DNA from: Cloeon dipterum
Lineage: Eukaryota; Arthropoda; Insecta; Ephemeroptera; Baetidae
Reading direction: 5' to 3'
NCBI RefSeq assembly: GCF_949628265.1
Contig: NC_088789.1
Coordinates: forward strand, 20,143,883 to 20,207,882
Length of the DNA stretch: 64,000 nt
Positions 12,665 to 59,421 of this stretch are shown piece after piece. How positions within the stretch are numbered: position 1 is the first letter of the stretch; every line of letters begins with the position of its first letter. Both the position numbers and the translations under genes were made by a program. The notes beneath the pieces were generated by a model. It made no database searches, was not told where the DNA came from, and was given only the letters and a program-made list of their open reading frames with translations.

Positions 12665-15600
12665 ATGGAGAAAATAGTGCAGCGAGTGACCTCTGTTTGC
12701 CACACGGACCGCGTCTGGCTGCGCGAATTTCTAGCCGAGTTCCTCGGGACGTTTCTCCTCGTCGTAAGTGAACACTATTTTTAATTTATTTCAGCTATTT
12801 AAAAATCAAATCTCATCTCTCTATGTGTCCGCATTTGTCGTTAATGGTTTAATTAACTTCAGATATTCTTCCAAAGTTAGATGAATTATTATAACGTGCT
12901 ACATTAGTTAGGTGGCTGAAGACTGGATTTGACACGTAAATTATTCAATGAAAAGATACTTTTTTTGTATACATAATATCCTGGCAATTTGAGATGAATT
13001 TTCATGAATCGGATAACACGATCAAATTTTGTTTTATGTCGCAGTTATAAAAGTAGAAACAAGTAGTACTGAACAGCAGACAAAAAGTAAATCGATTTTT
13101 TAACAAATTTAATCAAATTTAAATTAAATCAAATATTATCAAATGATATTTGTTTATCTAAGAAAAAAAATTCCATTACGACTCTGGGTAAACTTCGGGC
13201 AAAGAGTCAAGTGCGTGTTGAATTTGACTTTTATCAACTGAGATTCATATTTTATCTTTGTTTGATTGGCAATCTGATCCAGAGAAATGCTTAGATTGTG
13301 AAACTATTAAAAAAAGAGCGATAATAAAAAATTACGCTTGGCATCCCAAACCACTTCATTCTAAAATAAATATTCCATATCGGTAGGTCATTTTGTATTT
13401 TTGACAAAGAAACCGACATGCAGCGTTTAATAGTTTCTCGGAGGTTGAGAAAATTCGCATTCCAGATTAAAGGCAATTATTTTGAAAACAACGAAGGATC
13501 CCATTGAGAATTATTCTGAGAATTTAATACGTACCTAATTGAGCAACATTTGCCTAATACCTCAAAAAATCATAAAAAGACCTGTTTTTTGCCGTCAAAA
13601 CACCCCGAGGGATTATTCTTTTTTGTTCTTTGAGTTCTAGATGCAAGCTAAAACTTAACTTTCGGGAAAATTGCACGACTTTTAAATGTGAATTTAAATT
13701 TTGGAATTCGCGACCACTCGAGGTTGTTTCCATGTTTGATATAAATGAAAAAAGCCTTCATCCTCGTTGTTAAAAAGAATTCGTTGTTTTTAATCCTCGA
13801 CCAGTTTTGACGTCATCAAATACGTCCTTTTCATGAGGTAGTTGAGGCTTGCTCCAAAGACCAAATGCTGACCAATTCACTGATTTCAATTTATTTATTT
13901 CATTAAAAGAAAATGTGAAACTAGTTTATAGGGAACAACTCGGTGGCGCAGTCGGTGCTGAGCAGCGAGAGCGCCGGCCAGTTCGTCTCGGTCAACTTCG
14001 GATACGGCTTCGCGGTGACGATGGGCGTGCTGGTGGCGGGCGGCGTGTCCGGCGGCCACATCAACCCGGCGGTCACCCTCACGTTGGCCCTCGTCGGCAA
14101 GTTTCCGTTCAGGAAGGTGGCGCACTACGTGGTGGCGCAGTACCTGGGCGCCTTCCTCGCGGCAGGCGCCACCTACGTCGTCTATATCGGTACGTTGTGT
14201 TTATTTTCTTTTCATTTGATTTGCACGCGCGCCGCGGGAGCTACGGCTGATTGCATAAAAGCATTAAACCCGCGAATCCGTGGGAGGACTGCTGTGTGCG
14301 TGTGTGACTGCTCTTTTGCGCCATAAAAAGACGCAGGCTCATGCGGGGCTATATTTAGCTCGGTAAATACATTTCAGAGAGAAAAGCTCCTTTTCTACGA
14401 ATTTCACAGTTTCGTTTCTAAAAATAGTTTACTAGAAAATTTTAGTAATTAATAACTTTCAAATTAGGTCCACGGGAACCACACCTTGACAAAAGGGAAT
14501 CTAAAATTACGATTTCAAGTCATTGGATGTTAAACATTTTTCTAGAATTTTGCTTTTAATTCTTGCTTGACTGTGTTATAGTGAAATTATGTTGGCACAA
14601 TTTATATAAAATTACTTGCAGGAAAAGTTGTCTTAATTATTGATTTAGTAAAGGATTTATTTAGGCTTTGATGTGGCTTGAAGAATCTTCTAGTCTAAAC
14701 GAGGGAAAAGTTATGTAAAATGTTTTCATATCACGAATAAAAAATGTATGCTGGTTCTTCCTTTATGAAAGACACAAATTATTTATTTAAAGCAACGAAG
14801 TCAGTTACAATTCATCTGGTGTAATATACTGTTGCTCTTTTTATCACTAGATGTTGAGTTTTTAAAGCCAGAATTTTGATTAAAAGTTGCAAATGATGGT
14901 TTTGGAACCAATTTAAACCATCGCGAACAGTTCCCATCACGATTTCATGAATGCTTGAAAGGTGTATTTTGATTTTAGACACATCAGAGTGCTTCCTAAG
15001 CACCCTGATGGCTTCTAAAGGATCAAATTGCACATATTCTGAAAGCTCTCGACGTGACCGTTCCAACGGTGTGCAGATCGAACTAATGCAGAGCCCTTAA
15101 GGCGTCGTTAAAAGGAGCACACGTGCGAATAAATAATGTCAATCGCTTGAGGGCTGCCCCGACGGTAGGGTTCGATTTCCTACCTATTCTGACTTTTATG
15201 ACCTCAAGGATGACTCCAAGTATTTTTCACCGGCCAAATCCAACCGATCGTGTTATTTTGATTTTTTAATGTTCACCCGAATTTTAAAGACTCTCCATAT
15301 CTCACAAATCAAGAGATTCACCATCCTGAAAATTTCTAGACGTGTTTCATACACTCATCAGGGCAACATTTAATCCTCTACTTACTAATTAATTAAGCTT
15401 TTAAGATTTTCAAAGATAAAAAATTAGCCTAAATTACTCAAATTATAAAAACTCCAAATAATATATATATGCTTTAATTTATAAGTTGATGGCCGTCTAA
15501 ATAGGCAATTTTGGCACAAAGTTCTAGTTTCGTTAGAACTCGAGATAGTCTCATTTTCGTAAGCTCTGGGAAGCTCATTCTCCCAGAGTTCACCTGGATT

Positions 15601-22784: not shown

Positions 22785-22850
22785 TTACGTCTTCAGCAGC
22801 TTGTTGGCGCGCTGGTTGGCCACGGCTATTCTTGAATCGTTTGACTCGGC
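22785..22850 (-). CDS. Snap25: SNAP-25 alternative terminal exon 8a (distal, canonical)
   Basis: Acceptor ACTTGCAG|GCCGAGTCA, then 22 codons ending TAA. It encodes [19 protein letters not shown] followed by Lys-Thr-stop, matching the Drosophila Snap25 C terminus. Layers +3 to +8 are Ala, Asn, Ile, Ala, Ala, Leu. It lies 1.3 kb downstream of exon 8b. Confidence 0.95.
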   Translation of the reverse strand, partial: AESNDSRIAVANQRANKLLKT

Positions 22851-25800
22851 CTGCAAGTTTAAATCAGAGTTAGAAATTGGATTTTTAGGCGGAAGTGCAA
22901 AGTGCAAATCTAGCATAGAGTCATATATGCGGCACAAAAGATATCGATGAGGAGGCGGACGATAAACAAATGGCAGTGTTAGTTTAAGATATTGCAAAGT
23001 TTTACAAATTATTCCTTCAACCACCTCTAGCAATTAGTTCCTGTAAGACAAAGACAAAAATACCTAAAAGCTTTAGAATAAAAGCAAATATTTTTTTAAT
23101 TTAGGCAATAATCAAAGGGGGTTTTCAAAATATCAACTATTTTCAATGCTGACTGCTGAGATTTTTAGTTTGAAATAAAATTACTACAACCTCACGGGGG
23201 TTTGATTGCAGTCTTTTCAATTTTAATCAAACACCAAGACGTCTAGTTGATCTGTGACTTTTAATAGAGGAGAAAGCACGGCCCATTTTTTTACTTAAAT
23301 ATTTAATATGAGTATTAACCATGTTTCACATACATTTGAATAATTTAAAAGCATTCTTCGCGACAGGAAAACTCTTAAAATGCAACTCACATTTTTCAAA
23401 ATCAATTAAATTGAGTTCTATCAACGAGAAATCACAAAGAGTTTTATTTTTATTGAACGGATTTTGTAAGTATCAAAGCATCGAATGTTTAAAAATAGGT
23501 TTTAATATGGCATTAACTAATTTAAAATCGAAATTTGAAGCTAGCATTCATTCATTATTAAGGACATAGACTCTACTTGACAAGGTGACGTTTTTTTATT
23601 TTGCGTGAAAGTGCCCGAAGTTTTGACTTAGGCAAGGTAAATTGCTCAATAATGGTCCAGGAAAATGTTTTCAAACTTTCTGAGGTTACTACCAGGTCGT
23701 GTAGCTCAAATTTGGTCACTGGTGAAAAATATGTGAATTTTTATTTAATTCACTCAATTTTCAGACTGCTGATTTATCTAATTTTTAATCAGATTTGAGA
23801 AATTTTTAGTTTTTTTCTATTGTTGACCCTTACAAGTTTTCCTTGAAACGTTAAAAACCATTCACAAATCGAATTGTTTCATTAAATGCTGTCAGTGAAC
23901 TTAATTTCATAGAAAGAAACTAAATTGAGAAACACTGTATTTTTAAATCGAAATTTATATATTTGGTCCTTTTCTTTTAACTCGTATTAATCGCTAACAT
24001 CGTCGAATCAAAAAATTTCTGAAATCTATGCTTGTGCGTTGGAAAATTCAACCACCTGACAAGAAAATACTAGCACATTTCTACAGCTATCCAGAGCTAC
24101 ATGAAGATCAGCAAACTGATCAACAGACCACCTTTTATGCACTTAGAAGTTTTCCCGATTTTTGTGTTAACGCCGCCACAGTCGCTGTGTTGGAATCGGC
24201 CTGAATTTTGTGTTAATAAAACAAAATAATAAATTCATCATGCATTTTGAATAAGTAAAAGGAATTTAATTGGACAGCACGTACCTTACGGTTGATGCGG
24301 TCCACCTGTCTGTTCTGGTTCTCCAGTTCCGAGCCCATGTCGAGGGCCATGTTGCGCAAGTTGCCGATCATTGTGTTGACCTGGCCCATGTTGTCTTCCA
24401 TCTCCTCCTCACGGGCGTCATTGGTAATTCTAAAAAGATTTTCACATTAAAATGAAACCGGATGAATCAGAACAAATAACATGGCTGAATTTTTTATCGT
24501 CTCCTGGTTCTTGTGAAAGGGTTGTTAAAAAATTGATTTTATAGTTAAAAGTAAAATATAATGCGCAAAAAATAACCAATAAATTCTCTTCTAATTATCA
24601 AGCATTTAATGAAAATAAAGAAATATTTTTAACGAAGGAAAAATTATAAAAGTAAGCTGAAAATTGCTTGTAATTTAATTTGCTTACACTGTTATTTATA
24701 CGCATTTATAAAAAGTCATTTTCATAACTTAAATCTCTTTATAAAAGAAATTGGATGATTTTTAGGGTCGACTGACCTTCCAATATATCCGCCCTGAGGT
24801 CCAAGACCGTTGCGGTCGTCCATGACGCGCTGGGGCTGGTTGTTGACCACCTTGCCGTCGTCGTTGCCCTTCCACGTGCCGTCGTCCTCTTTGAAGGAAC
24901 TTGACCTAAAATGAGGCGAGCATCAAAAGAGTGCATTCCGCTGCAAGATATATTCCAATCATGATAGTGCATAATGGAGAGCATGGCGGTGCACTTTTAT
25001 TATGCTTGATAGGCAAAGACTCATTACCAGGCACAGTTAAAAAATGCAATGCTACAAATGGATTTGATCAAAGGCAAATAATTGCTCTTCACGCAAAAAA
25101 TAAATTTCTTTTTGGTGCAGCAACGAGTCATTAAATTTTAAATTGCCACGTGGAACAAATTTATTAATCAAGTTTAATTATGATAATTTTGGCACTAAAG
25201 GAACGCACCAATGTGACACAAACCGATTGAATTTATTCTGCAATAGAACTAATGATGAAAAGTAAATTTTTTATGTACTAATTGTAAGAATGAAAACAGC
25301 TATACCCTATACCTACTTTTTAAATGAAATCGAAGGAAACATAAAATGGAACAAAGTTTAAATATTGCTTTCTTTCTTGGAATAAGTGGTTTTCGTGTTT
25401 TTGCAACTCTATTTTAATTTGTGTAGTCACGAGAATAAGTTATTAAGCGTTGTAATACTTTTTTGCAATTATATTGCAATTTTAACATTTTTACTTGAGC
25501 TCCATCCCATTTTTTGGTATGGTGGCCGAAATAATTACGTTTTTACAAAGGGTCTAAGGTTGGAAAATTGGAATTTGACTTAGTTTGGTTTTAGTTCTGG
25601 ACGATAAAGTGAGGAAATAAAAATTGCAATATAGGTTGATATTGTCCTTCGGAAAATTGTGGGTGGGAGTCACTAACTGAGGTCAGAGAAGACCATCAGA
25701 AGAGTTGAAAAATCGACCCCTGGCGTAAGCGTAGCCTTCTAGCGATTGATATCATTCACAATTCCCCTTTGTAGCCATTTAACTGACACCTTTTAGGCTC

Positions 25801-28800
25801 TGTATCGGTTCGATTTGCAAGATCTGCAAACCGTTGGAACGGCCAAATTGAGAGCTTTCAGAATGTATTCAAACCAACCCTTTAGACGCATTGGTGCTCA
25901 GGGAATTCCCTGATGTGTCCAAAATTTCTCGTGGCTTCACCTTTTATTCTATTTTCTTAACAGTCATCTTGAATTGGCTGGACTTGAAATAATAAAAACA
26001 CACACACACACACACACACGAAATATCTTACTTGTTACAAGGCAACACACAGAGGCCACAGCACTTCTCCATGCCAGTGAGATTTTTCTCAGCTTCCTTC
26101 ATGTCGGCGTTGATCTGGTCCATGCCCTCCTCGATGCGGTCCAGTTGTTCTAGGGAAAAAGTGGCCAAATTAGTCAAAACTCGATCGTCGAGCACCATTT
26201 CAAGCCATGGTGCTTGGCAAGCGGGACAAGCGTTTGGAAAAATACAAGTAGAACACGCACACAGTTAATTTTAATCGAATTATTTGAAAGAAAATGTAAT
26301 AATAGGAAGAGCAATCATCTGGCCAAATGGTAATTCATTTGGTAAGTAAAAACGCCAGCATGATTTCAGTTATAAAAAAAAAAAAACAGAAATGTATTGA
26401 CAAAGAGATCGACACACCAATATTAACACAAATAAGTGAAAAGAAGCCCACAATAGCACCATGATATGTTTCGGTTAGTTTCTGTTAATGTGTGTTAATG
26501 TTTTCGGTTGAGTTCGCGAGATATGTTTTGCACAGCACAACAGGATTTTTTTTGTTTCTTTTGGTCTCTCGTTTCATGACAAGCAACGACCTTTCGGACG
26601 GAAGAGTATATACAGTAGTATTATAGTTTAGACATACTCACCACTCCTGCTTCTATAAAATTTGAACATGTGAACAGAGTATAATCATATATTCAGTGGT
26701 GTTCAGAGTAAGCAGATGAAATATCAATTGCCAAGAGAAGAGAGGAAGAGAGAGAACTCAAAATAGAGCAAATCAATCTTGAACGAATCGATGTGTTTTG
26801 CGAAAATTGAGAGCTAGCAAGCCACGAGGTCAATTTTCGCTTTTGACATTTGCAAAATTGCAGCTGTTCCAAGAGAGGAAGCATGCAGAGAACGAATTAA
26901 TCAAATCTGACTGACGATTTTGAGCCTTGAACACAAAGAAAAACGAAACGTAAATTACCGAACCAAATGTTGTAAAAAAGCAAAGACTCTGCTAGAGAAA
27001 AGTCTACTGAAGATGGAAGAGAAACTGGGAGTGAATTTTGATATATATGGAATATGTGTGTTTCTATTATTTTCCTTCTGTCACTTTTCTTTTGGAAAAG
27101 AGTGCCGGAGCCGATTGGAAATCTGTGAAAGCCGCAGTGGTGAAATGTAGAATGTGAAACTGTCTCGGAGTATATATAGTAATAGTAAATGTGTGTTGCG
27201 ACATCGAACACATACAAGTATCCGATTTACTCTACCAACCAGACTGAGAAAAGGCATGCGACAGACACCACAACATGCCCAGGTCAGGACGTTTGTTTGG
27301 TGCCAGGAGGGAAAGCGAAAAGATTGAGACGATGGACGCAGTCGGAGAACATGGGTGCAGCAGAGGAGGATGGAGAGAGAGAGAGAAAGAGAAAAACAGC
27401 AGCAGAGCATGACATCGTGGGGAGGGACCAGTCTCATCAGAGTCAGCAAGGGGTGCCTCGATCCTGCACGCATGGGGTCAGCGGAAAGAGAGAAAGAAAG
27501 AGACAAGGAGAGCAGACTAGACAACACTCAATCGACCTTTCTGTCTCAGCTGAGTTCCGGTCCACTCCGCCACAGTGCGAGTTTGGCAATTCAAATTTAG
27601 TTCAGTCAGATTAGGTCCATGGCCTCTACATCTAGTCGTTAGCTCGATATTTTGGTTAAATAGCTGACCCGCGCAAAAAGTTATCGCTTTTTTACATTTT
27701 GGTCTTTAGAAGAGAAGAGGTATATATGTATGTAAAAAATTGCAAATATAGATCGTTTGTGAATGGGCTTACCCCCTTGCTCATCCAACATCACTAGGGA
27801 TTTCATGCCGACCTCGTGGCTCTACAACAGCAAAACACATCAGCATGGCACCAGAGACGGGCGGAATCGCGCCCCTTGACTGACGTCGACATTGCAATGG
27901 ACCTCGATAAGTCGGGGGATAAACCAAAGTAAATAAATCGACAGACTTCCATTGAACATGACACCAGAGAGAACGAAACAAGCAAAGGGCGCGCGTTCGA
28001 CGCAATAACTTTTCTTTTCAGCGACCAATTAGCATTTCATTTCAGATCAGAGCCAATGAAGAAGGATGGCGGCGCAACCCTGCAAGATCGATCCATTCCA
28101 ACGAGTGCACAGGAAAGGCATTATTCAAATTTCAGCCGTGCAATCGCCGGCTGACCATAACAATGCTTGCACGGCCGGTCGGTAATAAGAAGGACTGTGA
28201 ATTTTAGACGATTTTTCTCTCTCGAAAAGTGGTTGGCAATCTTAAATTTTGAAACAGTTGATTTCTGATCGTGTCAGATACTTGATCTTTTATTAAATTT
28301 ATCACAACTTTATCCTAAATTAAAAATTAAGAGGATAAGATTTTGAGACTTCTCCTTGTATGAAGGAATTAAAGGTCTAAATCGAATTTTTAAAGCTCAA
28401 AATAGTATTTCTGACTGAGAACATTGAATACAATGGTCAATTCTTGATTATAAGCAATATAACCCAGATATTCGGTTGATTAAGGACATTTTAGCCAATT
28501 TAGAAAGATTTTAAAAATGAACGATTGAAAGCCCAGACAAAAAATTAGACAATCGTCTAAATTTCAAAGCCCCAGTTATATTATATCTAAAGAGAGGCTG
28601 GAGAGAAGAACCGTGAATTAGGTATATATGGTTCCTGACTTGTGATTGCAGTTGTGAGAAGAAATCAGCGTGACGTTCTGCACACCGATCAGAGCAACAA
28701 TCACAGCTCAAGAGCGGACACAAATCCAAGCTCTCGTATTGGTGTGTGAGAATATCCATTGAACATCTTACCACCAAGTAACGAGTTTCACGTAATGTAT

Positions 28801-31800
28801 AATTATGATACACACCAAGATTAATAGAGAGATACCACCTGCTTTTTGCTCAGGAAAGAACAAAACGGTTTGAAAAGACACCACACCAATAGTGAGATAG
28901 AGATAGAGAGAGAACATTGAAATATAATTATACGTATATAATCATCGTGATCCCAGCACGTCTAGATATATATAAAAATTCAATCCAACCAACAGCAAAA
29001 CCAGCGAGAACATTCAGATGTACAGAAATGGCAAAAAAGGTTAGTTTGGTAGTAGTGATGAGTTGCTCACACTTGTCGACGCGATTGCATTTACGTACCT
29101 CCTTGATGGGCCAGATTATGCAATGTCTTTGCACCGGCCTCCTCGCTCTAAGGCAAAAAAATCAAGATAGATTGGTGAAGAAACGACAGGCGTGTAGTGA
29201 TTTAAAATGCTGAACAGAAATAAAAAGAGTTTGAAAAGTACAATGGCACAAATCATAATACGGTGTGTGTTCCGTGTGTAAAAATGCATATCATATCAAC
29301 AACACGAATATATATCAATTATGACATCGCAAAAGACAAATTTTACTGGCGAGTGGCTCGCCGGCACATCCTTTTAAACGTGATCCGACTCGAATCGGCG
29401 GTCGATATGTTTTAAAATTCGTACCAGCATTTACATACTGCAAATCCAATTGCTGGTGTAGCGCTAAGATTACCAAGAAAATAAAGAAGCGGCGGGTAGG
29501 TGCAATTCTCCAGACAGAAGAGAAAGAGAATTTAGATTTCAGTTTGCATGCCCAGCAAAGCCTCAAGCTCGCAGCAAAGATTTTTTAATTTTCACTCTTT
29601 TTAAAAACAGAAAGCGCAATATTTATCATTAAAAGCGGTGTTACGCTAATCAGGGTTTGGGAAACAGATTGTCCACAGGCTTTTTTTACCGGAATTGTCC
29701 AGGAATAACCAGTTTGTGGAATAATTTAACACAATCTTGCTCCCGATTAGGAAGTCTTCGTTTTAAAATTCGTATTAAATGGTATTTTTGCACAAATTTA
29801 AGACGCTAAAAACAGCAAAAAATTAAATAACTGATTTTTTAGAAGTCACTGTTTCAACGGGTATTTTCTTCATTTTCTTCCACTTTGTACAACTCAAAAT
29901 TTAGTTAAATGCAAAATTTCGCGAAAGTGGCTTTTTCTTATCAAATGTTTAAAAACGTTTGAAAAATAGAACTTTTATTCAATAATTACAAATTTAATTG
30001 AAATCTTTTCAGATTTTTATAAATTGGCAAATCCCGGTTTTTTTTCGAAAGAAAAAAATTAACCCATGCAAAAGTTGCAGACGCTGCGCACGCAGAATCC
30101 AAATCATTTCAATAGCAAGTTGGATTTTTATTGAATATTGATGAAAAAGCATTAAGCGTGACTGCTTTGTCTGTTTGGTGGAAAGCAATTTTGGTACGGT
30201 GTTTCGTAGGGAAAGTCGGCGGTGTAATCGCGAGCGCAAACACGAGAGAGGCTTTGCTTTAATTGGAGGAGCGGGGTGACTACTCAAGCCAACAGAAACA
30301 GCGACACATTCAACACTCAACAGCGATGACAATTAATTAGAGGACGTAGAGGATTCCATGGGAGTGGAGGAGATTTAAATATCTGGTTGTGTGTTTTAGC
30401 GGGGACAATTCGTGCCGTGTGTTATGCTGGTGGGTCTCTCATAGTCACGCATGCATGAGAAATAGTACGTAGCGATATAATCATTTTCTACGTCGAACCT
30501 GCGCGAGTGCCCTCGCAGCTTGCCAAAAAGGAAAAGATAGAAAGAATTCTGGCCCCGAGCCAAAGTCCCGGTGAAACGCCTGCCGCTTTTGCAAGCAGAC
30601 AGCACGCCCGGCGCGCGTGACGAGCGGGTTGCATACTCGTTCGAGGGCACTGCGTAGGTCGTCAGTCAGAGATAGAGTGTATTTCCTTAACTATTTTTTA
30701 AGTATTTATTACGGAATATTTCCTGAAATTTTACTCTGGTTTTGGTAAAATTAGTATCATTCTGTAATAATATTTCATAAATTTAATATTTTTAGTTTCC
30801 TGGATCCAGATTTTTCTTTTTTTTTTGTCATTCTTAATAATTTCATTACGACTTCAAATTAATTTTGATCAATCTCTGAATATATCTTGATAGAATTACA
30901 ATTTTCAACATTTTTAGAAATAGAAAGTCTTTTTAATAATAACTAAATTGTATGTCATTTTTACATTATTTATGAATGGAGAGCTTGCAAAGATAATGGC
31001 CGACTGAGACAGTTAGTAGACGGCCTTCATCATTTCCAAAATCTTAATTTTGTTTCCCTTGCAGTAGAAGTAACAGGGAAAATGATTTAAAAATTTTAAC
31101 TTTCAATTGAAAGACTAAAAATAGTTTCCAGCAATTTAATGTAAGAAAATTTTGAAAGTTATTGAAGAGAACACAATATTTTGGTATTATTTTTCAGGAA
31201 GCAGGAATACAATACCGCATTTTATAGTTTAAAAATTTTTCTTGTTCAGGAAATACACTCTAGGTCAGAGAGGAGAGTGAGTGCATGGTTTCAATGCAGA
31301 TTAATGCGCCTCCAATATATATGATGTAGTTTTTGCAAATGTCATCGTCAAACCTGGATAATATTTACAAACGAAACGGAAAAAGACTACGGCGAAGAAT
31401 GTGAAACAATAAAAAAGTTCTGAGTATGTGATTCAAGTTGTATTAATGCTCTATAGAGTGAGAGAAGAGACGAAAGGCATCAAATACCTGGTCTACGAGA
31501 CATTAGTGATGGGTTGGTTCGTTTCGTGGTCTCTCGTCACTAAATAAATTTACGTGTGAGTTGCAATAGTTAAAAAAAATTTATCGGGGAGACGCTAGTC
31601 GAATTATAGTCGTTGTTGATGTTGTTGTTGTAGTGGTGGAGTTGGTGGTGAGTAAAAGAGAGAAAGAGATTAGAGATACAAGTATATTACGTGCTACTTA
31701 CTGTCAACTATAAGGCTTTTCTTGTTTAGCAACTGTAACAGTCTTTAAAAGTTTGGAGAGTATACAAATTTACAGTGTCGTTTTCATGTACTGAGAGAGG

Positions 31801-32507
31801 CACAACATTATTTAAAAGCTTTTCTTTAGGCGTGTGGTTCTCGCTCGCGCTTTAGTGTTCCTTTTAACGCCTCTGTGCAAAACATATCAGCCCCGGCTGA
31901 GTTTAAAAAGATAGAGAGAGCAGAGAGATAGAGAGATGAGTGTGGCCCCTGACGCAGTTCGGTGGTGTGTATTTATGTTCTTTAGACGTTTGTGCGTGTC
32001 GGGATAGGGAGCAAGGACAAGGAGGTCCGAGGAGAACTCACCTCCCTGGTCATCGAGAGCGACCAGAGTTCGAATGCCCGCCTCCTTGCTCTGCACGGCA
32101 GCACGGGAACAAAGAGAAAAAACACGTACAAGATCATAAATAAATCTCTACTACTGGGACGAGAGTTTGTTCGAGATCAAAAATCGGCATCGCGTCGGCT
32201 CAAAGAACACACGCAACAAAGAGTTTGCGGCCACCCTGAGTGAGCCGAAAGGGTGGAGTTGGTTCTCGCCTCAGTCAGGGTGGCGAATTCGAAAAATGAA
32301 AATTTGGACCGTCCGTCTTCAGAGAAGAGAAAACGAACTAAACAAGAGTTTTCTGGAGTTAAAATGCGGAGGGTTGGAATTTATTTACACACAGTCATGC
32401 ACAATCCGCCGGTCGGCAACTGACTGGAGGAAGATTTGCCTGTGAGTCCGAAAAAAGACACGTCGAGGGAGTGGGAAGGAGTTTGAGATAGAGAGAAAAA
32501 CGCGGAC

Positions 32508-32541
<34 letters not shown>

Positions 32542-34140
32542 ATAGAGACAACACTGAAACTCAGAAAAGGTAGCGACATGGCACTAACAAGAGGTTGAAT
32601 CATCGTGTCCACTTTCACTCAAGGACTTCCAACAGTTTTGACACACAGAATGTACAAGTAGGGGGTGGGGGGGTTGAGGAAGGCAGAGTGATTTGATTTT
32701 AAAAGTATCGTATTTTAGAAAAATCGTCGTCGTCGTCGTAGTCGTCGTCGCGTATTTTTTGTGCTGATATATTTTTGCATCATGTATGTCGCATGTTTGT
32801 TTCTCATGTTTTCGGGGATCTTGTAAGTGGTATTATTATTAATTCCAATTTTCGGTTTATTTAGAATCGCACTTTTTAGAATTTTTATACAACAGGATAC
32901 AGAAGAGGAGGAATCACAAAAGAGAGTACGATAATAGAAATAGAGATATAGACATGCTCAGCACACTGAAGGAGGGCAATTACCACTGTCGATCCTTACC
33001 TCTTCCAGAGAAGTACCGTTATTAATAATAGTTAAATTTTAGGAGAATATATAACGCAGAACTATCATTTACGAAAAAGCGCTAAAATCCAAGTAGTGTG
33101 TATAATTTAATAAAGAAGCAATAAGGACAACCGGCTGCAAAAGAGGTGGTATTTTGCTATTTCAACAACGCTCGAATTTCTGTCTTAGTCCCGATTCATG
33201 GGATTCTCGTTTCGGTAGCACGAAGATTTTCCTGTTTTCGTCGAGACAGCGGAGAAATGAATCAATCGTCTGGCGCTTTTCCAACGAGGCCGCTCGTTTG
33301 TTTATGTGCAAGGGAAGAAAATTATTTATTCCCAAGTTTAGCCTTATCGGGCCCGTGATTCATTTCTCCGCAGCCAAAAAGATAATGAAATTCGTCATTA
33401 AACACAAAGAGATTATGCGTAATCAAATGGGCGTGGTGCGCGACACTTACCTCTTCACAGAGAGCCATCATGCGCCGTGTACTTTCCAGCGACTGGAAAA
33501 AAAGAAAAGTCAGCCGTGAGTATTGATGTTCAGACTCAACTGATTATTCATCATCGAAGGAAAAAATTATAAACAAGGGCAGCACAAAACAACAGAAAAC
33601 TTTGGGGTTTTTCGACCCAAAATTTCCTTAAAAATAAATAAAATGAGGAAATTTAACGATTGGAAACTAAAAATTACTTTTTTAACGTAAAGAAATGGAG
33701 TGTCATCATTAATTTTTTTAATAGAAGTCCTAATCAATATATAAACTGTTATTTAATAATTTAAAATTCACAAAAAATCACTTTATTTTTCTATTGCCGC
33801 TCTTTTGCCAAACCATTCAATAAATGAAGTCTTTGTAGCAAAAGAAGACAGTTTTTTGCATCCCAAATGGAGAACATTTGCCAAGTAAAAATTCTCTTGG
33901 AGGACCACCCACGTTCTAAAACAATTCATGCAGCTCTGCTAAGAAAAAAAGGGAGAAGAAAGTCACTGCGTTACGAAAATTAAATTGAAAGGAAGTGTCT
34001 GACCTTCAAGATTCCAGACGCTGTTTAAAATAATTAATTTTTGCACTTACATCATCTGTGACTTGTCCTGCTTTCATCTGCAGCTCCTGCAGCTCCGTCT
34101 TGGGAGGCTCATGGCTTGCTGGTTCCACTGGTGCCGGCAT
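22785..34140 (-). CDS. Snap25: SNAP-25, Qb/Qc SNARE of synaptic exocytosis, 212 aa
   Basis: Neuronal plasma-membrane SNARE that pairs with syntaxin and synaptobrevin to drive vesicle fusion. Constitutive exons, from 5' on the minus strand: 34140-34051 ([20 protein letters not shown]...), 33492-33451 ([14 protein letters not shown]), then one of three exons 4 (32090-32042, 29147-29099, 27821-27773), 26149-26032, 24905-24777, 24429-24285, then one of two terminal exons (24200-24135 or 22850-22785). All phases agree. With exon 4A the Qb helix holds the ionic-layer Gln59; the palmitoylation cysteines are 90, 91, 94 and 98 (CCGLCVLPC); the linker runs to Gly-Arg143; the Qc helix holds ionic-layer Gln181 ([13 protein letters not shown]). 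Length equals Drosophila Snap25. The 5' UTR probably has an intron ending TTTCGCAG just before AGCCTAAAAATG. Identity is certain; the isoform set is read from sequence only. Confidence 0.97.
24135..24200 (-). CDS. Snap25: SNAP-25 alternative terminal exon 8b (proximal)
   Basis: Acceptor AATTCAG|GCCGATTCC, then 22 codons ending TAA. It encodes [19 protein letters not shown] followed by Ser-Ala-stop. It follows Lys191 in phase 0, exactly like exon 8a, and has the same length. Heptad positions for layers +3 to +8 are Ala, Asn, Val, Leu, Ser, Leu. It needs its own poly(A) site; AATAAA motifs on the minus strand occur near 23742 and 23594. Confidence 0.85.
   Translation of the reverse strand, partial: ADSNTATVAALTQKSGKLLSA
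25600..25935 (-). repeat. Dispersed repeat family, partial copy (SNAP-25 intron)
   Basis: The block GAGGTCAGAGAAGACCATCAG followed by AAAAATCGA and TGGCGTAAGCGTAGC matches the 46.6 kb copy. Its reverse complement matches the head of copy 1 (CTATTCTGA...GACCTCA). It lies in the SNAP-25 intron between exons 5 and 6. Confidence 0.5.
25999..26019. repeat. (CA)n microsatellite in SNAP-25 intron
   Basis: An uninterrupted CA dinucleotide run lies just beyond the SNAP-25 exon 5 donor (26031). On the transcript it reads (TG)n, a kind of element known to affect use of nearby splice sites in other genes; any effect here is speculative. Confidence 0.9.
26700..27620. repeat. Purine-rich low-complexity tract between SNAP-25 exons 4C and 5
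   Basis: GA-rich, GAGA-rich sequence dominates, densest at 27370-27400 and 27485-27515. The long open frames on both strands here (27081-27614) come from this composition and match no protein family. Confidence 0.6.
27773..27821 (-). CDS. Snap25: SNAP-25 alternative exon 4C (vertebrate-like form)
   Basis: Acceptor GCTGTTGTAG|, 49 bases, donor |GTAAGC, phase 0 to 1. It encodes [16 protein letters not shown] plus the first base of Glu. LVMLDEQGE across the join is identical to vertebrate SNAP-25 as remembered. Core positions Ser, Gly, Ser, Leu and Gln keep the SNARE heptad. Confidence 0.87.
29099..29147 (-). CDS. Snap25: SNAP-25 alternative exon 4B (divergent form)
   Basis: Acceptor GCCTTAG|, 49 bases, donor |GTACGT, phase 0 to 1. 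It encodes [16 protein letters not shown] plus the first base of Glu. The helix-core positions Ser, Gly, Thr, Leu and Gln fall in the same register as in 4A, while surface positions change to Lys, His, Asn, Ala and His and two acidic residues are lost. The exact length, phase and register argue for a functional exon rather than chance similarity. Confidence 0.85.
32042..32090 (-). CDS. Snap25: SNAP-25 alternative exon 4A (canonical insect form)
   Basis: Acceptor CGTGCAG|, 49 bases, donor |GTGAGT, phase 0 to 1. It encodes [16 protein letters not shown] plus the first base of Glu, matching the Drosophila sequence as I remember it. It covers Qb-helix layers from about -4 to 0, with Gln59 as the ionic layer. 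It is the first of three such exons in transcript order. Confidence 0.93.
32460..32760. repeat. GA and GTC/GTA microsatellites between SNAP-25 exons 3 and 4A
   Basis: A (GA)n run is centred on about 32515-32540, a G-run at 32660-32673, and a (CGT)n tract with one variant unit at 32726-32752. On the transcript strand the GA tract is a long CU-rich pyrimidine tract 370-500 bases upstream of exon 4A, a plausible binding platform for PTB-like splicing regulators (inference). Confidence 0.75.
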
Positions 34141-42009: not shown

Positions 42010-42300
42010 ACCGACCTGAATTATCTCCAACTCCTCACTTCTCACTCGTGTTTCAGCCGGCCAATCAGAGGCCGCCATTCGCTCTGTTCAAGGAGGTTTC
42101 TGACCCCTCTTGCGCCAAGTGGGCGATCTGATAGTGATGTAGTATCGCTATCGCTATCAGTGAATTTTGACGTTTAAGTTGAGTCAGCTGCGGGCGAAAA
42201 TAATATAAACAGCGAATGCGTGACACCGAGAAGTATTCCCTTTAAACTCAATGCCCGGAATGTTAAAAGGCTACCCCTCGGCTTGAGGATTTTTTGGTAA
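42010..42300 (+). promoter_or_regulatory. Promoter region of the KCTD3-like gene
   Basis: A CCAATCAG box lies at 42061-42068 in GC-rich sequence. CTGATAGTGAT at 42128-42138 is mirrored by ATCGCTATCAG at 42150-42160 (10 of 11 pairs), with an internal TCGCTA duplication. A 5' UTR intron probably ends at CTTCCAG (42361-42367), 24 bases before the ATG. Confidence 0.45.
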
Positions 42301-42391
42301 AACTAGCATTAATTTATTTTCCTGCAATTTGGGCATCCATTTGAAGCTCTTTATTTCGTGCTTCCAGACGTTCCATACGCAGGACAGCAGA

Positions 42392-45300
42392 ATGGCTGCG
42401 TCTCATAGCTGGTATGGTGGCGATAACATCGTGCATTTAAATGTCGGTGGGACCAGGTTAAGACTTGAAAATGATTATTCCTACGTCACTTTTAAAACGT
42501 CAATTTTTTGCAGGTTCGACACTTCGAAGCAGACTCTCCTTTGCATTCCAGACTCATTCTTCACAGCTCTTTTGAGTGGCAGAATTTCGTCCGTAAAGGA
42601 TGAAAAGGGCTACATTTTTATCGACAGAGACCCAAAACTGTTTTCTATCATTCTCAACTACTTGAGGACCAGGGACATAGACGCCAACAACTGTGATCTG
42701 AGGGCCCTGCGACATGAGGCCGAGTATTACGGCCTTGGTCCCCTGGCCAAGAGGCTCACCCTGTGTGAGGACTTGACCTTGTCCACCTGCGGAGACATCC
42801 TCTTCTACGCACACCTTTATCCACCTTGTAAGTACTTCATAATTAATATTTGTTTATCACTTTTGCTGGCATTAAATCATGCTCTATTTATTCTAAACCA
42901 TTGTTTAAAGATAATCAAACACTTATCATCAAAATAAAATACGTCATTATTTCCAGCTCCTCCTCTGCCTGAGGTGACAAGGACAAGTGAGTCATCGGCC
43001 TCGATCTGCTCCACGACGCCATCTCAGCAGGGTAGACCGCAGGGTAGGGGTTCAGGCGACAGCGGCGTCCGTCCAGGCTCCATCGTGCGCGTTCCGGAGA
43101 ACAGTCCAGCCCTGCACGCCCCTCCACTAACCCACAATTCTACGCATTCCCGCAACTCTTCTCTGGAGCTGAGGATGCCGGCTCCGGCCCAGTCTGTGAC
43201 CAGGTCCAATCAGGATTTGCGCAGCCACGGCCGCGTTTCGCACTCGAGGACGGCATCACTTGACCTGAGACACACAAGGAACTCCTCGGCTGATTTGAAC
43301 AAGCTGTTCAGGAACGACATTGGTCTTGTGTTTGGCCCTCAAGGTTATTTACAATGCTTTTGGAATTTTAAACGTTTAACTTTTCATGAGTCGTGAAATA
43401 TTTTTGAAATTTTTCTTATTTCATGATATTTTCAATTCTATTTTTTCATGGCTTTAGCGCACCAATAATGGAAGAAAAATAATATATGCGGCGTCATATT
43501 TAAGTTATAAATTTCAACCTTCAGGGTGACCCTGAGGATCCCAAATCATCGAGTTTAGTGTCAATTCGACTTTTTGAAGTTCAAGTTTGGATTAAAAAAT
43601 GTAAACAGGTTATCCGAGACACCATATGGGATGATCACTCAGGTATATTGATAGTTGAAATTCCAGAAAAAAAAATTATTTTGTTCGTTACAATAGCATA
43701 TATATCTGGGATGATTAATATTTAAATTCTGGCACTAAATTTATTTGGAGCCTGCAGGGTCAAAAATAAAATTAATGACATTAAGCTTGATGATTTGGTA
43801 CATTTCTTCGTGTTTTCACCTTTAGGGTCAGACTCCAAAGGTTTGAATTGACCTCAAATGGTATTATTTATTTACCCTTAGTATGCATTAGTAAATTTGA
43901 CTAGCAAAAAAGCATATATATTAGGCACATTTTCAATTCAACAGTCGTACACGGCAGAATGACTTTGAGCCAGATTTCAAATTTTAATTGCAACAAAGGT
44001 ATTTTGATTGCAACAATCAAACTCAGGGTACTTGTTGTTTCACGGTCTAAATGTTGATTAAATTTAAATTAAACTTTTTAAAATTTTCCAATTTATTCAT
44101 AATAATTTCTCCTTCCAGCTTCTGGATGGTTTGACCCTTTGAGGGTGCAAATTATCAAAGCGCACCACAACTGGATCGCCGTTGCCTATGCCCACTTCGT
44201 CACTTGCTACAGGTTTTTTGAAAAAAATATTCCTGGATGTCAAAGGATAAATTTTTATTTCAAATTAAGGTTGAAAGATTCAAGTGGCTGGCAGCATTGC
44301 TTCACGAGCCCTCACATCGACATCTGCATCGAGCGAATCGCCATCAACGCCAAAATGGGACAAGGGGGACAAGAGTCAACCTCAAAAATGGTTGCTATCT
44401 CCTACGGCAACCAGGTCAGACTTTGGGGCGTTGGCGAGGACGGATCAAAAACAGACGTTGGTAAGTGAAATAAAATATAAATCTCATGCTTGTAATTGAG
44501 TCTGATTTGTTCCAACAGGCACTTTCAGTTTGCACGTTCGTGTGGAGGTCTTATTTTTCATCGGCAGCCAGCTTGTAGCTCTCTCTCCAACGGGGAAAAT
44601 TGGGGTTTGGCACGCCATGACCCAGCACTGGCAAATCCAGGATGTAGTGCCAATCACTTCATTTGACACGGCAGGCTCTTTCTTGCTCCTCGGATGCGAT
44701 AACGGTGCTATCTACTATATTGGTAATTTTAAATAGCTTACACTCTTGTCTAGACACTAATTTTGTTTATTTTACATGTGGGCCATAGTTACTTTCCCAA
44801 TATATTTTTCTTCTAATTCTCATTTATTTGGGTTGAGAATTGAGTTTTTTTTTCGGCAATTCAACCATTATTAGACAGTTTTTGGCTCTTAAAAAGGGTT
44901 CAATTTTTTCTAAAAAATGTCAGCCAAGCTGATTTTAATCAGTTTTTAGCAGGCTTAATTGGTTAAAATTAGGAAATTAACAAAATAAAATAACTCAAGC
45001 ATGAAACACATGTCCACCTTGAATTTTAAAATTTTAAGACTTATATGTATTTAGAAAAAAATATGAATTTCACATCAACAAGAAAATCTTAAGTGTATCA
45101 GAAGTAAACAACCTATTTTAGCCATAAATTTGAACCACTTTTAAAAAAGCCAATTTATACTTGGCAAAAATTGTGAACATTGCTCTTAAAAGACGTAATT
45201 TGCAGTAAATTTCGTCTATCTTTACTGAATTTTTCTCGGCTTCATTATTTTACATCTCGTAAAAAAATTATCAAGAGAGTAAAGTTACTTTTGACAAAAA

Positions 45301-49418: not shown

Positions 49419-52400
49419 CTAGTCGACATTGTCTTGGAATATGAGTTTCACGTAGCCGGGCTTCCCCTCCAGCGGAGTCGCGCAAAACGGACACACGGCG
49501 TCAAAGCCGTTCGTGCCATGCGGTATGGCCACGTTCGCCCAGTACCTAAAAAATTGTACATTTAGGCACATTTTGAGATGCAGATTGGATTTCTTACTTG
49601 ACAGTTTTCTCCGAAGACATATGACCGCAGGGGTTAAAGGCATGTGTTGGCTGGCCCTGATCAACGTAGAATGCAGGTTCGATTCCCATGCACAACATGA
49701 CAACAGGACCCGCCTGCGAGCACAGAAGAGGAGCACGTTAGATTTTTCAACTATGATTTAATTTTAAATTAGCGTCGGGGGCCGATTTAACCAGGCGCTA
49801 CAGTTTTTTGGGCGTTCAATTATTCCACGGTTTTCTTTAGTAAAATAAAAACAGGACAGTAATACCTAGTCCAAACCCTGGCTTCAACAGAAATTAAATA
49901 AATTAAGTAATTTCTGGTCTCGTGATGATTAAAAAAGACTACCCATAAATTTTGTGTTATAATTTTTAGTAAAAACATATTATTCAATTGTTTTCAAAGT
50001 CATACAGCGCGACATTTAATGCAACTGCCCTTCACTAATGTGATTACTTCCTTATCTCAGGTTTCAAAAAACCGCAATCTCGGTGAACAATCCAATAATT
50101 GCGCAAGTAAAATATGTCAGTTATATGTATATATACCGTTGATCGACAAGAAGCCTATTTTAGATTCAAGTGTGCTCATTGGGCTAACTTAGATATAATA
50201 TAAATATCAGTTCCAAACTGAGAGCGGAAGAGGCTCAATCAGAAAAAAACAAATGAAACGTGATGTCATTGTTAGCGGCTCCCTCCCAAACATTTACGCA
50301 AAAGGCGAGCTATAAATATTTATTTGAGACAAAACACAAACTGCCGACACGATTTGCAAAAGTTATTTAATACTTGCGGCTGCGTGTTTAGTAGAAAACG
50401 AGTAAAATTTCAAGCAAAGCCCGTGTCAAATTAACAAATAAATGCCAAAAACTAATAAACTTTTCTGGAAAATGAAATTACATATTTTGGCCTTCTAAAC
50501 TAAATTATTCTCATTTAGCTAGATTTATTGTCCTTTTTGCTATTTTTCCAAACTAATTAAAATTATTTTAGCGGGATGAAATTGTTCTTGTTAAAATTAC
50601 TCAAATTATTTGACGAAAGACGAAACAAAAACTGATGAAATTCTACTTCATCTAACAAAACCAATTCTTTTTCTACATGACGAGTTATGTGGAAAAAATT
50701 GATTTTACGATCTTAGGCACGAGTTTAAAACAAAATATATATAATATGTATTCGTGAAACTGACAGTTCAACCATTTCCTTCACAAATGAATTTAAAATT
50801 TTTGAAACCGGTAGAAATTTATGTTAGCCAAACATAGATTAATGAAAATTCTGGCTAAATTTTTAGGTGAACGAGATAAAATCAACTATTTTTGCATTTT
50901 AAACACACATATCCCTGTTTTGACCGATTTATTTATTTCGCTTTTATAAATATTTAACACCACAACTCTCTATGGTGGCCCAATATAGGCCTGAATTTAT
51001 TTTGCTCAAATGAATAAACCAAATAATGACTTAGTCAATAATGACAACAAAATTGGAAATTTCCTAAAGACATGAGGAAATTGTCAGAACGAGGAGAGGA
51101 ATTTCCTCACACATCCAAGGAAAGAATGTTATAAATTCTGAACAACAATTTCAATAATTTAGATTTTCTACGGCCCAAAACACAAACACACCGCTTAAAA
51201 ACATACCGCCTGGCCAAAGCTGAGATTTACGCAGCCCAACTTACTCATATATAAACAAATTAAATCAAATTTCCCTACCTTGGTGCAAAGCGGACACTTG
51301 CGGACGCCGCTGGAGCTCTTGTCCCAGTCGTGGTGTCCTTGGACGTGTCCGCAGTTGAGGTACACGTAGGGCTGCGTGCTCCCCGAGCCGAGATAAATCT
51401 TGTTTCTCGGGATGACCAGGGTGTTGAGGCCGACAGGACACTGCGGGCGGCCGGCGTTGATCTGATCCACCATCTTCTCCAGGTCGGCCTTCGACGGCGA
51501 CTTGGACAGGCCCTCGGCCGACCGCCAGAGCAGCGTGGCGCCGCACAGGTCGATCAGGGTGCCGTCAAGAAGAACATTGTCCTCGTTCTCCACTGGCAGA
51601 CCCTTCTGCTGGGCCGAGCGCGACTCTCGCAAGGTGAAGACGCCGCCGCCGACCGACACCTCGCGCCACAGCCCACCGGGCGTGCTGTCCGCGTCCATCG
51701 AGGTGTCCTCCTCTTCTTGTTCGGTGAACGAGCCCCGAGGGTGCATAATCAGCACGCCGTTCGTGGTCAGACCGTCAATTTCGCCTTTTGATTGCCATTT
51801 AGTAGCTCTTTCCTAAAATTGTTTGAAGGAAGGCAAATTAGAGAAGCTTGAAAAGAGTATTTTACTTTCGGAAAATTCCCTGAAAACCAGTTAAATTCAG
51901 TTTTAGCTTAAAGTTAAGAAAATGTGTGTATTGTCATGTCTTACTTAAAAGTTTTCCTAAGTCTCGTGGAATTTGGAAAAATGATTAGAGCAATTGGGCA
52001 GGTTTCTGAGATGTTTGAAATTGTAATTGTTACAAAATTTTCCTGAGAGCACTAAGTAAGAGGTGATGAGAGATGAGGTCGAAGGTAGACATTGCGCAAT
52101 TGCTGTTTTTAAAGTATTTCAAAATTCCAGGAAAATAACTATGCTAACTTAAAAGAGCAACAACTGTAGCTTTTGTTCAAGTTGAGATATCAACGAGAAA
52201 CTCGCCTTCAACTTACGTTCCCTAACAACATTAGAATTTACAAAAAAGATAATAGTCAGCAAGGGCCCCTATCCATCTTATATAGAAATTCAGATTTTAC
52301 AGGGACTACAGGGAGAAGCCCGTCTTCGACATTTTTGATTAGCTCTTTTAATGTGTATTTCTTTTTTTGCAGACCATGGGTGTCATTTTGTGATCTGTGC

Positions 52401-56345: not shown

Positions 56346-57567
56346 ATGGCACAAAGTGCACCCTTGATTTTGAGGATAATAGCTTCCTCCGTTAGTGCTG
56401 CGAATCAAGCAGGAAAAATAATCCGAGATGTTATGAGCAAAGGAGAGCTTGGAATTGTTGATAAGGTATAATAAAAATTTCTATTAATTTCAAAGTATTA
56501 ATTATTGAGACAAATTTGCAGGGCAAAAATGATTTGCAAACCGAAGCTGACCGTTCTGCTCAGCAGTGCATAGTGAGCTCTTTAAGTTTGCAGTTTCCGT
56601 CAATAAAAATCATTGGCGAAGAAGACCAGAGCAGCAACTCATGCCCAACGCCGCCGGAATGGTTGGTGACTGAAAGTGATCCGAATGTCTTGGGCCTGCA
56701 GTGTCCCAAAGATCTGGAAAACGTTAAAGAGGAAGAGGTATTTAAATTAAATCAGTAAAATTCAATGAAAAATTTAATTTTTCCAGGTCATAGTTTGGGT
56801 TGACCCTTTGGACGGTACATCGGAGTACACGCAAGGTAATTCTATAAAAATTATCAATGTCATATTGAGTATGTAATAAAAAATAAACTTGTAGGTTTGC
56901 TTGACCACGTAACTGTTCTCATCGGAGTTGCTGTTGGTGAAAAAGCTGTCGGCGGTGTGATCCACCAGCCATACTACGAGTACCAAAATTTCGCTAAACC
57001 TGAGTTATCCCCTGGAAGAACGATTTGGGGAATATCTGGCATCGGCACTGGAGGCTTTGACCCTAAAGTTGCCGAGGAGGGAAAGAGGATAATCACCACC
57101 ACAAGGTCACATTCCAATGCTTTGGTTCAGGCTGCGCTGGACGCCATTCAGCCTGACGAAGTTCTTCGTGTTGGCGGTGCCGGACACAAAGTAATTTTTC
57201 CTAATTTAAATTAGGGCTGACTTTAGACCAAACTTGTTTTACTGAATCAGATTGGCAAAACTTCACACCCTCATAAAAATGTATTTTAATAGAACATCTC
57301 ATTTAGGTTATGCTGCTGATGGAGGGAAAAGCACACGCATATGTCTTTGCAAGCGCTGGGTGCAAGAAGTGGGACACCTGCGCTCCCGAAGCGATTTTGA
57401 GCGCTGCTGGCGGCCACCTGACGGACATGCTCGGCAGGCCTTATCAGTATCATGCCAGTGTCCAGCACTTAAACGCCTCAGGGGTCTTGGCAACGGCGCG
57501 CAAAGAAGATCATGCCTGGTACGCCAGTCGAGTTCCAGATTCTGTGCGTGAGAAGCTTTCGTCTTAA
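56346..57567 (+). CDS. BPNT1: 3'(2'),5'-bisphosphate nucleotidase 1 (BPNT1), 313 aa
   Basis: A Mg2+-dependent, Li+-sensitive phosphatase of the inositol monophosphatase superfamily that hydrolyses PAP, the by-product of sulfation, to AMP in the cytosol. Exons: 56346-56465, 56522-56737, 56787-56835, 56895-57190, 57307-57567; all frames join and the stop is TAA. The metal-binding motifs are present: GEED (residues 72-75), WVDPLDGT (116-123) and KKWDTCAPE (247-255) with Trp249-Asp250. [34 protein letters not shown] and ITTTRSHSN also align with human BPNT1 as remembered. Length is close to human (308). There are four very short introns (49-116 bases) and it is divergent from Pellino. Start [15 protein letters not shown] matches the family N terminus. 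Confidence 0.96.
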
Positions 57568-58330: not shown

Positions 58331-58459
58331 TTTGACCATGACTAGCCACGCCCACTTACCAGATGGTGTGCTACTTGCTACATGCGTTCAAAACTGATCA
58401 CAACAACACGTCTCTTTTAAGCTTTTTTTTTTTGGAAAGTTAACTAAACTCGAGACATT

Positions 58460-59421
58460 ATGAGTGTCTCGCTGATTAATTTATTCAAGCGTGTTAACTT
58501 TCGCGAGACGGTAAATGCTCCTAGAAGGCTAACCAATCTGTTAGGTGAGAAATCAGCACAAAATTCGACAGAACAAAAACACTCAATAAATTTCCTTGCT
58601 TTTTCAGAGCTTAGTCAGTGGAGCAGAGGCTTGAAAACAGTGCATTTGGAATGGAAGCGACCCGAAAAGCTGGGGAGCATTCACCCAAAGAACAGCGGTG
58701 ACCTTGAGCCGCTGCCGGAACTGGACAAATCGGAGGTTTTCCAGGAATTCAAAGACGCCGGCATCGACATCGAGAAAATGTCGCAGGAGCAGCGCAAGTT
58801 GTACACTCTGGGCTTTTTACCAGCCATGTACGCTCACCGAACGCAACTGCAGAACGCCCTGAGCAAGGTGCAACGGCACCAGTTCGACACGGACTCCATT
58901 GAAGCCAAAATTGCTCGTGCCACTGTTAACATCAGACGGCTGCAAAATATGCTGGCACAGGAACCCAGGAATAAGAAACAAAAGGTAGAATAAAATTTGA
59001 TTTTGTATTATATTTTATTTATAGCATAAATATTGTTATAGGTGTTTCTCAAAGAATTGATAGATAAGAGGAAAAGTATGCTGAATAAACTGCGAGAGGC
59101 TGATTACAAACGTTTCGAGTGGCTGATTGAACAGCTCAACATAGAATATCGTCCACAACCAGAGTAAGGGTTAAATGAAATTTTACGAGCATCTCACTGA
59201 TGGTTTATTTTAGGAATACAGCTAGAATCACTAGAAAGAACTCGCTGCGGATGCTGACTGAAGAGTATTGCGACAAAGTGAAGAATGATCGATTAGAGGC
59301 GCTCAAGAAAAAGATGCAAGTTGAGAAGGAAAAGTTTGAAATTGAGAAGAAACAAATCCTTGAGTGGATTGAAAAGGAGGAGGCCGCTTGTGAACAGTTA
59401 AAACAGTTGATATCTCAGTGA
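58460..59421 (+). CDS. mRpS15: Mitochondrial ribosomal protein uS15m (mRpS15), 263 aa
   Basis: Small-subunit mitoribosomal protein, orthologue of human MRPS15 and Drosophila bonsai; it binds 12S rRNA. Exons: 58460-58544, 58608-58984, 59042-59163, 59214-59421. Phases join and the stop is TGA. The basic N terminus (MSVSLINLFKRVNFRETV) resembles a mitochondrial import signal. The S15 fold is visible in DSIEAKIARATVNIRRL, then LIDKRKSMLNKLREADYKRF and LIEQLNIEY, matching the human EARI..L...I, RKKMLKNLRNTNYDVFEKI and GIEY segments from memory. The C terminus is a charged helix rich in Lys/Glu. The first intron is 63 bases, in frame and without stops, so its retention would add 21 residues and leave the frame open. 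The short intergenic distance from BPNT1 (about 0.75 kb from its poly(A) signal) carries the DRE sites. Confidence 0.9.

Follow-up and report, generated by a model that had tools for sequence, protein, structure and literature searches.

Three candidate mutually exclusive copies of exon 4 in the Snap25 gene of the mayfly Cloeon dipterum, and their possible role in synaptotagmin-1 coupling

This study concerns the gene of the mayfly Cloeon dipterum for SNAP-25, a membrane-fusion protein of nerve terminals, and, in particular, three alternative copies of exon 4 of this gene, Snap25. The gene lies on the minus strand of a stretch of 64,000 nucleotides (nt) of contig NC_088789.1 (assembly GCF_949628265.1, positions 20,143,883 to 20,207,882), referred to here as the window, and the positions given below are those of the window. 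Joined with exon 4B, its coding exons specify a product of 212 amino acids (aa) that is 100% identical to the NCBI entry "synaptosomal-associated protein 25 isoform X3 [Cloeon dipterum]" and matches the Pfam SNAP-25 family (PF00835, 1.2e-22), which places it among the SNAP-25 (Qb,c SNARE) proteins. The exons and the evidence for each are as follows (peptide classes A, B and C are described further below).

34051..34140, minus strand: exon 2, coding part from the ATG (sequence and joined translation)
33451..33492, minus strand: exon 3, 42 nt, ends in phase 0, donor at 33451 (joined translation, tblastn)
32042..32090, minus strand: exon 4A, class A, 49 nt (frame test, profile; peptide identical in other insects)
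29099..29147, minus strand: exon 4B, class B, 49 nt, with V48 to H, D51 to A and E52 to H relative to rat (frame test, profile, isoform X3 match)
27773..27821, minus strand: exon 4C, class C, 49 nt (frame test, profile; peptide identical in Adelges and Cotesia)
26032..26149, minus strand: exon 5, 118 nt, entered in phase 1, acceptor at 26149, single copy (joined translation, tblastn)
24777..24905, minus strand: exon 6 (joined translation)
24285..24429, minus strand: exon 7 (joined translation)
22785..22850, minus strand: exon 8, 66 nt with the stop (joined translation, profile)
24135..24200, minus strand: candidate alternative last exon 8', 66 nt with a stop, AG acceptor, within intron 7 (profile, tblastn)

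An earlier reading of this DNA, made from its letters alone (the sequence-only reading), had proposed that 4A, 4B and 4C are interchangeable exons encoding the central part of the Qb helix, of which the frame allows one to be used at a time. Its coordinates were all right, from the donor at 33451 through the three copies to the acceptor at 26149, and each copy is indeed 49 nt long, entered in phase 0, left in phase 1, preceded by AG and followed by GT. The frame rule also held: when the eight possible combinations were joined to exons 2, 3 and 5-8, exactly three (A, B or C singly) were open, each giving 212 aa, and the joins with none, the three pairs or all three copies reached stops at residues 61, 71, 74, 74 and 71. 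The premature stops of these five joins fall 341-458 nt before the last junction, so that every copy number except one could expose the message to nonsense-mediated decay, and the extra copies might on this ground be mainly frame-breakers that lower the SNAP-25 level, with the peptides being secondary. Such an explanation is very improbable, since no copy is interrupted in the frame that is used and each encodes a recognisable peptide that keeps the SNARE core, and since the A and C peptides stay the same from one insect order to another, a constancy for which a pure poison exon would have no need.

The resemblance between the copies is well beyond chance. A profile was built from 119 distinct exon-4 peptides, with the seven named mayfly proteins excluded, and applied to the 132 open stretches of the window that consist of 49 nt between AG and GT. 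The three copies scored 41.1, 40.0 and 38.9, the next-best candidate of the window -3.4, and the highest score over 60 windows simulated with a first-order Markov model (Markov-1) was 8.2; no fourth copy of exon 4 was found among the 132 candidates. A DNA pattern of 29 places, taken from the first half of exon 4, had three matches in the 190-Mb genome of 10 contigs, namely 4A, 4B and 4C. Because its reversed control also gave three matches, the pattern is not rare by itself, and what goes beyond chance is that its matches cluster within 4.3 kb. Between copies, 26-30 of the 49 bases agree, with agreement lowest at third codon positions. The introns around the copies are 1277-2894 nt long, and steric exclusion through short introns is therefore unlikely. 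CT-rich tracts, possible sites for polypyrimidine-tract proteins, occur in introns near the copies, around 32540, 31930, 28910 and 27390.

Mutually exclusive use is also indicated by gene models. Among the Cloeon protein models, P0003 carries A alone, P0001 B alone and P0004 C alone; P0003 and P0004, from an older C. dipterum assembly, carry peptides identical to those of 4A and 4C and differ slightly at the N-terminus. Three protein searches, of which the best 120 of 2341, 120 of 638 and 120 of 2620 matches were taken, provided 260 distinct proteins from a database clustered at 90%, a procedure that often conceals further isoforms of a species. Of the 260, 251 gave a clean exon-4 peptide (P0005, P0074, P0088, P0103, P0111, P0117, P0144, P0145 and P0206 were dropped), and the 120 proteins of the first list yielded 114. 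At least 19 groups of proteins share an identical body and differ in the exon-4 peptide, three of these groups being same-class peptides from different species. Among the matches listed, sets that differ in exon 4 alone within one species were seen in at least 12 named species, comprising insects (Cloeon, Arctopsyche, Thrips palmi, Bacillus rossius, Cotesia typhae, Planococcus, Copidosoma and Sitodiplosis) and other animals (Babylonia, Amblyomma americanum, Dermacentor albipictus and Oedothorax). Taken together, the frame test, the Cloeon models and the A/B/C sets of other species support the view that 4A, 4B and 4C form a mutually exclusive exon cluster, with one copy presumably included in each RNA.

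Three peptide classes could be recognized among the matches listed. Class A, which ends in (D/E)QGE, and its close variants occur in insects, ticks, spiders and mites, and the 4A peptide recurs letter for letter in other insects, in line with the similarity first noticed by the sequence-only reading. Class C, SHEVGMK(S/T)LVMLDEQGE and close variants, was found in thrips, beetles, butterflies, bees, wasps, aphids, a mealybug, a cricket, a stick insect and flies; the likeness of 4C to the vertebrate LVMLDEQGE was correctly seen, and its peptide is identical in Adelges and Cotesia. Neither class A nor class C was found in named crustaceans among these matches. Class B is variable and is present in insects and crustaceans (Daphnia, Artemia, barnacles, crayfish, prawn and crabs), so that 4B, which had been thought new, represents in the mayfly a class found in both groups. 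Isoform X4 of the beetle Tribolium castaneum, for example, has a class-B peptide. The stick insect Bacillus rossius and the wasp Copidosoma floridanum carry a full A/B/C set on one body. Since mayfly, stick insect and wasp each have all three classes, these very probably predate the split between mayflies and the remaining winged insects, both of which probably inherited all three from before it. In agreement with this, all 35 exon-4 peptides tested, including those of two sand-fly species with identical bodies, were closer to a peptide on another body than to their own sibling.

The second peptide of ticks, A(Q/T/S)DAGVKTIVELDKQGE, and that of a snail, AEDAGIKTIVMLDEQGE, each alternate with another 17-residue form, and a spider has SKDTGIQTLVALDEQGE versus SEDVGVKTLTMLNVQGE. 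These second peptides may reflect the same duplication as 4B or a separate origin, 17 residues being too few to decide. Horseshoe crabs have two exon-4 types, on proteins with different bodies. The isoforms P0179 and P0182 of decapods (crab, crayfish) have extra exon-4 peptides, TQETGIKTLVELDTQGQ and GQDMGIKTLSNLDDQGK, that fall outside classes A-C, and decapod exon-4 arrays may be longer. P0206, a model from the copepod Eurytemora, consists of two SNAP-25-like units end to end.

The segment encoded by exon 4 corresponds to positions 39-55 of rat SNAP-25, including V48, D51 and E52. In mammals, D51, E52 and E55 form an acidic patch that binds the C2B domain of synaptotagmin-1 (Syt1), as described in passages of PMC4878868 and PMC9623538, and the triple mutant D51A/E52A/E55A is reported in the former to impair C2B binding with normal assembly. 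V48 is one of the residues of the primary interface's hydrophobic patch; according to PMC10911398, the mutation V48F reduces Syt1-dependent docking, increases spontaneous release and desynchronises evoked release. At the positions concerned, 4A has I44, V48, D51 and D52, and 4C has M44, V48, D51 and E52; 4B has A44, H48, A51 and H52. E55 is kept in all three. We take I44 to be part of the same hydrophobic patch as V48; no literature treating I44, D51 and E55 together was found. The numbering of the core layers was anchored on I67 as layer +4, following a passage of PMC10911398. The residues S39, G43, T/S46 and L50, of layers -4 to -1, and Q53 are retained in 4A, 4B and 4C, much as the sequence-only reading had described. 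Q53 is presumably layer 0, the ionic-layer glutamine.

A corresponding division is seen in the first list of matches. In 41 of the 114 first-list peptides the hydrophobic pair at 44/48 and both acids at 51/52 are kept, and the remaining 73 are without the hydrophobic pair; none of these 73 has both acids, 26 have one and 47 neither. The split was computed without class labels. The 73 class-B peptides have a signature of their own, with A, G or T at position 44 in 70 and H at position 52 in 45. Core layers are kept in 110 of the 114 peptides by the stricter rule and 113 by the looser, and in 69 of the 73 of class B. Mean identity is 1.0 within class A, 0.90 within class C and 0.61 within class B, the flanks of class-B peptides reaching 0.92-0.94. 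The low value for class B would suit a relaxed, decaying 4B without a function of its own, a most unlikely explanation given the open frame, the intact splice borders, the core layers kept in nearly all class-B peptides, the signature at 44 and 52, and the occurrence of the class in insects and crustaceans alike.

On balance, we consider it probable that 4A, 4B and 4C constitute a mutually exclusive splice switch in which the 4B form weakens coupling to Syt1, the functional step being drawn from mammalian data. One exon-4 copy would be chosen per transcript, and transcripts with any other number would lose the frame and have their products removed, perhaps by nonsense-mediated decay. By analogy with mammals, the swapped segment of the Qb helix would be the docking site of the Syt1 C2B domain. 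Because 4A and 4C keep the hydrophobic residues at rat positions 44/48 and the acids at 51/52, they are expected to support Syt1-clamped, synchronous release; because 4B has these contact residues replaced and its five core layers kept, it would assemble into SNARE complexes and couple weakly to Syt1. The 4B form might then serve cells or vesicles with spontaneous, asynchronous or peptidergic release, or release driven by other synaptotagmins. Recognition of the exchanged surface as a Syt1 contact goes beyond what the sequence-only reading had claimed, as does the second last exon described below.

It is also conceivable, if rather unlikely, that the cluster is real and its surface serves another partner or the speed of SNARE assembly (e.g., complexin, tomosyn, Munc18/Munc13 or NSF/SNAP) rather than Syt1 coupling. 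The prevalence of H at position 52 of class B suggests a feature gained and not a loss alone, and the mammalian mutations V48F and D166Y are reported, in a passage of PMC10911398, to alter partner-SNARE association besides Syt1 binding. Set against this, the positions that part class B from the other two classes are those known to contact Syt1, and the Syt1 counterpart of this contact is intact in the genome. Pieces matched by tblastn on one of its contigs (C3) contain SLRYV, ILEAKN, LNPYYN and SPRRPIAQWH, and the Cloeon Syt1 C2B keeps residues matching R281, E295, Y338, R398 and R399, in a numbering taken in part from the papers.

A number of observations weigh against a Syt1-tuning switch with single-exon use, or at least temper it. 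All 73 class-B peptides retain E55, so that part of the acidic patch survives, and among all 251 peptides there are intermediates, 33 having the hydrophobic pair but not both acids (e.g., ticks with K at 52) and three the reverse. The rules that assigned classes A and C used interface letters, for which labels taken from other surface positions served as a check; with these labels, blind to the interface, both acids were kept in 21 of 23 class-A, 19 of 21 class-C and 0 of 47 class-B peptides, 23 being tied. The variability of class B fits weak constraint as well as it fits diversification. The bias in codon position between copies is significant in part only: it is clear for 4A-4C (simulated fraction 0.004), whereas the 4B-4C pair shows it more weakly (0.04) and the 4A-4B pair not significantly (0.09). 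The evidence for single-exon use comes from gene models, not RNA reads, and in the older Cloeon model P0005 4A is joined in frame to 4B through a donor that lies 23 nt into the 4A intron (32019-32041, minus strand); comparable merged models exist for four proteins of other insects (P0074, P0088, P0144 and P0145). These may be prediction artefacts or, for P0005, a rare isoform. Finally, a scan of a single species for RNA pairing that might enforce the choice of exon was compared with 15 simulations; the downstream docking candidate exceeded all 15 by about 1-2 kcal/mol, and the upstream candidate fell inside their range. The merged models also carry information on exon order, with A preceding B in Cotesia congregata, A preceding C in an aphid and a beetle, and B preceding C in a moth, and so hint at the same order of exon-4 copies in other insects.

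The candidate exon 8' has the same 66-nt length as exon 8, and 32 of the 66 bases agree. Against a profile built from other C-termini it scored 25.9, compared with 1.4 for the next candidate of the window, and among 60 simulated windows the highest score was 12.9; its first tblastn match was weak (E 0.018). AATAAA/ATTAAA motifs lie beyond it at 23789-23745 (minus strand). In Amblyomma, Babylonia and Daphnia, proteins with an otherwise common body end in alternative C-termini, and the 8' ending was present in none of the mayfly proteins retrieved. Elsewhere in the gene, tblastn of the window gave one exon-5 match and thus no second copy of the vertebrate 5a/5b type, and a search with the N-termini of Daphnia, horseshoe crab and Lingula produced no convincing alternative N-terminal exons. 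A recent tandem duplication of the gene was considered and rejected, a genome search with the first 100 residues having returned only exons 2 and 5 of Snap25. Neighbouring reading frames of the window match the Pfam families MIP (aquaporin; 13925-14326, plus strand), BTB_2 (42287-42937, plus) and Pellino FHA/RING (51195-51812, minus), and, below the curated cut-off, Inositol_P (56840-57214, plus) and Ribosomal_S15 (58448-58993, plus).

The closest known parallel is in the same family: vertebrate Snap25 also has a duplicated exon of which one copy is used, in the region of the first SNARE helix, giving SNAP-25a and SNAP-25b. There it is exon 5 that exists in two copies (5a/5b), whereas in the mayfly exon 4 is present in three and exon 5 in one. 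That vertebrates alternate exon 5 rather than exon 4, as stated by the sequence-only reading, is borne out by the relevant passages of PMC2581893, which call the exon-5 variants mutually exclusive and say that the exon-5 duplication is not described in Drosophila; in the part of PMC5740500 dealing with SNAP-25, the protein is mentioned solely by way of PMC2581893. The neural exon clusters of arthropods of the Dscam1 type are likewise tandem, homologous exons of equal length with a frame that allows one inclusion, but mayfly Snap25 has three copies, and docking/selector pairing is at most a candidate from a scan. The Syt1-contact mutants V48F, D166Y and D51A/E52A/E55A resemble 4B, which naturally changes V48, D51 and E52; it differs from them in being a normal splice form, with other positions changed too, E55 kept and a predicted effect. 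Literature searches on exon-4 alternation and on splicing of invertebrate SNAP-25 brought up no description of the exon-4 triplet or of such alternation, subscription papers and supplements lying outside the search, and the sequence-only reading likewise knew of none for the triplet. Database isoform names indicate that annotation pipelines already model exon-4 forms. Within the literature searched, the three-exon arrangement and its connection with the Syt1 contact appear to be undescribed, with the isoform models already public.

More broadly, and tentatively, exon 4 could be a very old protostome switch that tunes Syt1 coupling, with A and C giving clamped, synchronous release and the class-B form (or the second form of ticks and molluscs) giving Syt1-independent fusion; combined with the alternative last exon this would make six possible mayfly proteins, and vertebrates would have lost the switch and later evolved that of exon 5 independently. 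Work on the Syt1 face of SNAP-25 has relied mainly on mammalian mutations, either engineered or found in disease. If 4B acts as its sequence suggests, insects have long carried a natural, regulated version of a Syt1-contact mutation, and the role of this contact in vivo could be tested by removing one exon in a tractable species. Protostomes would then diversify SNAP-25 at an exon other than the one used by vertebrates, and, should 4B weaken Syt1 coupling, splicing could change the control of release.
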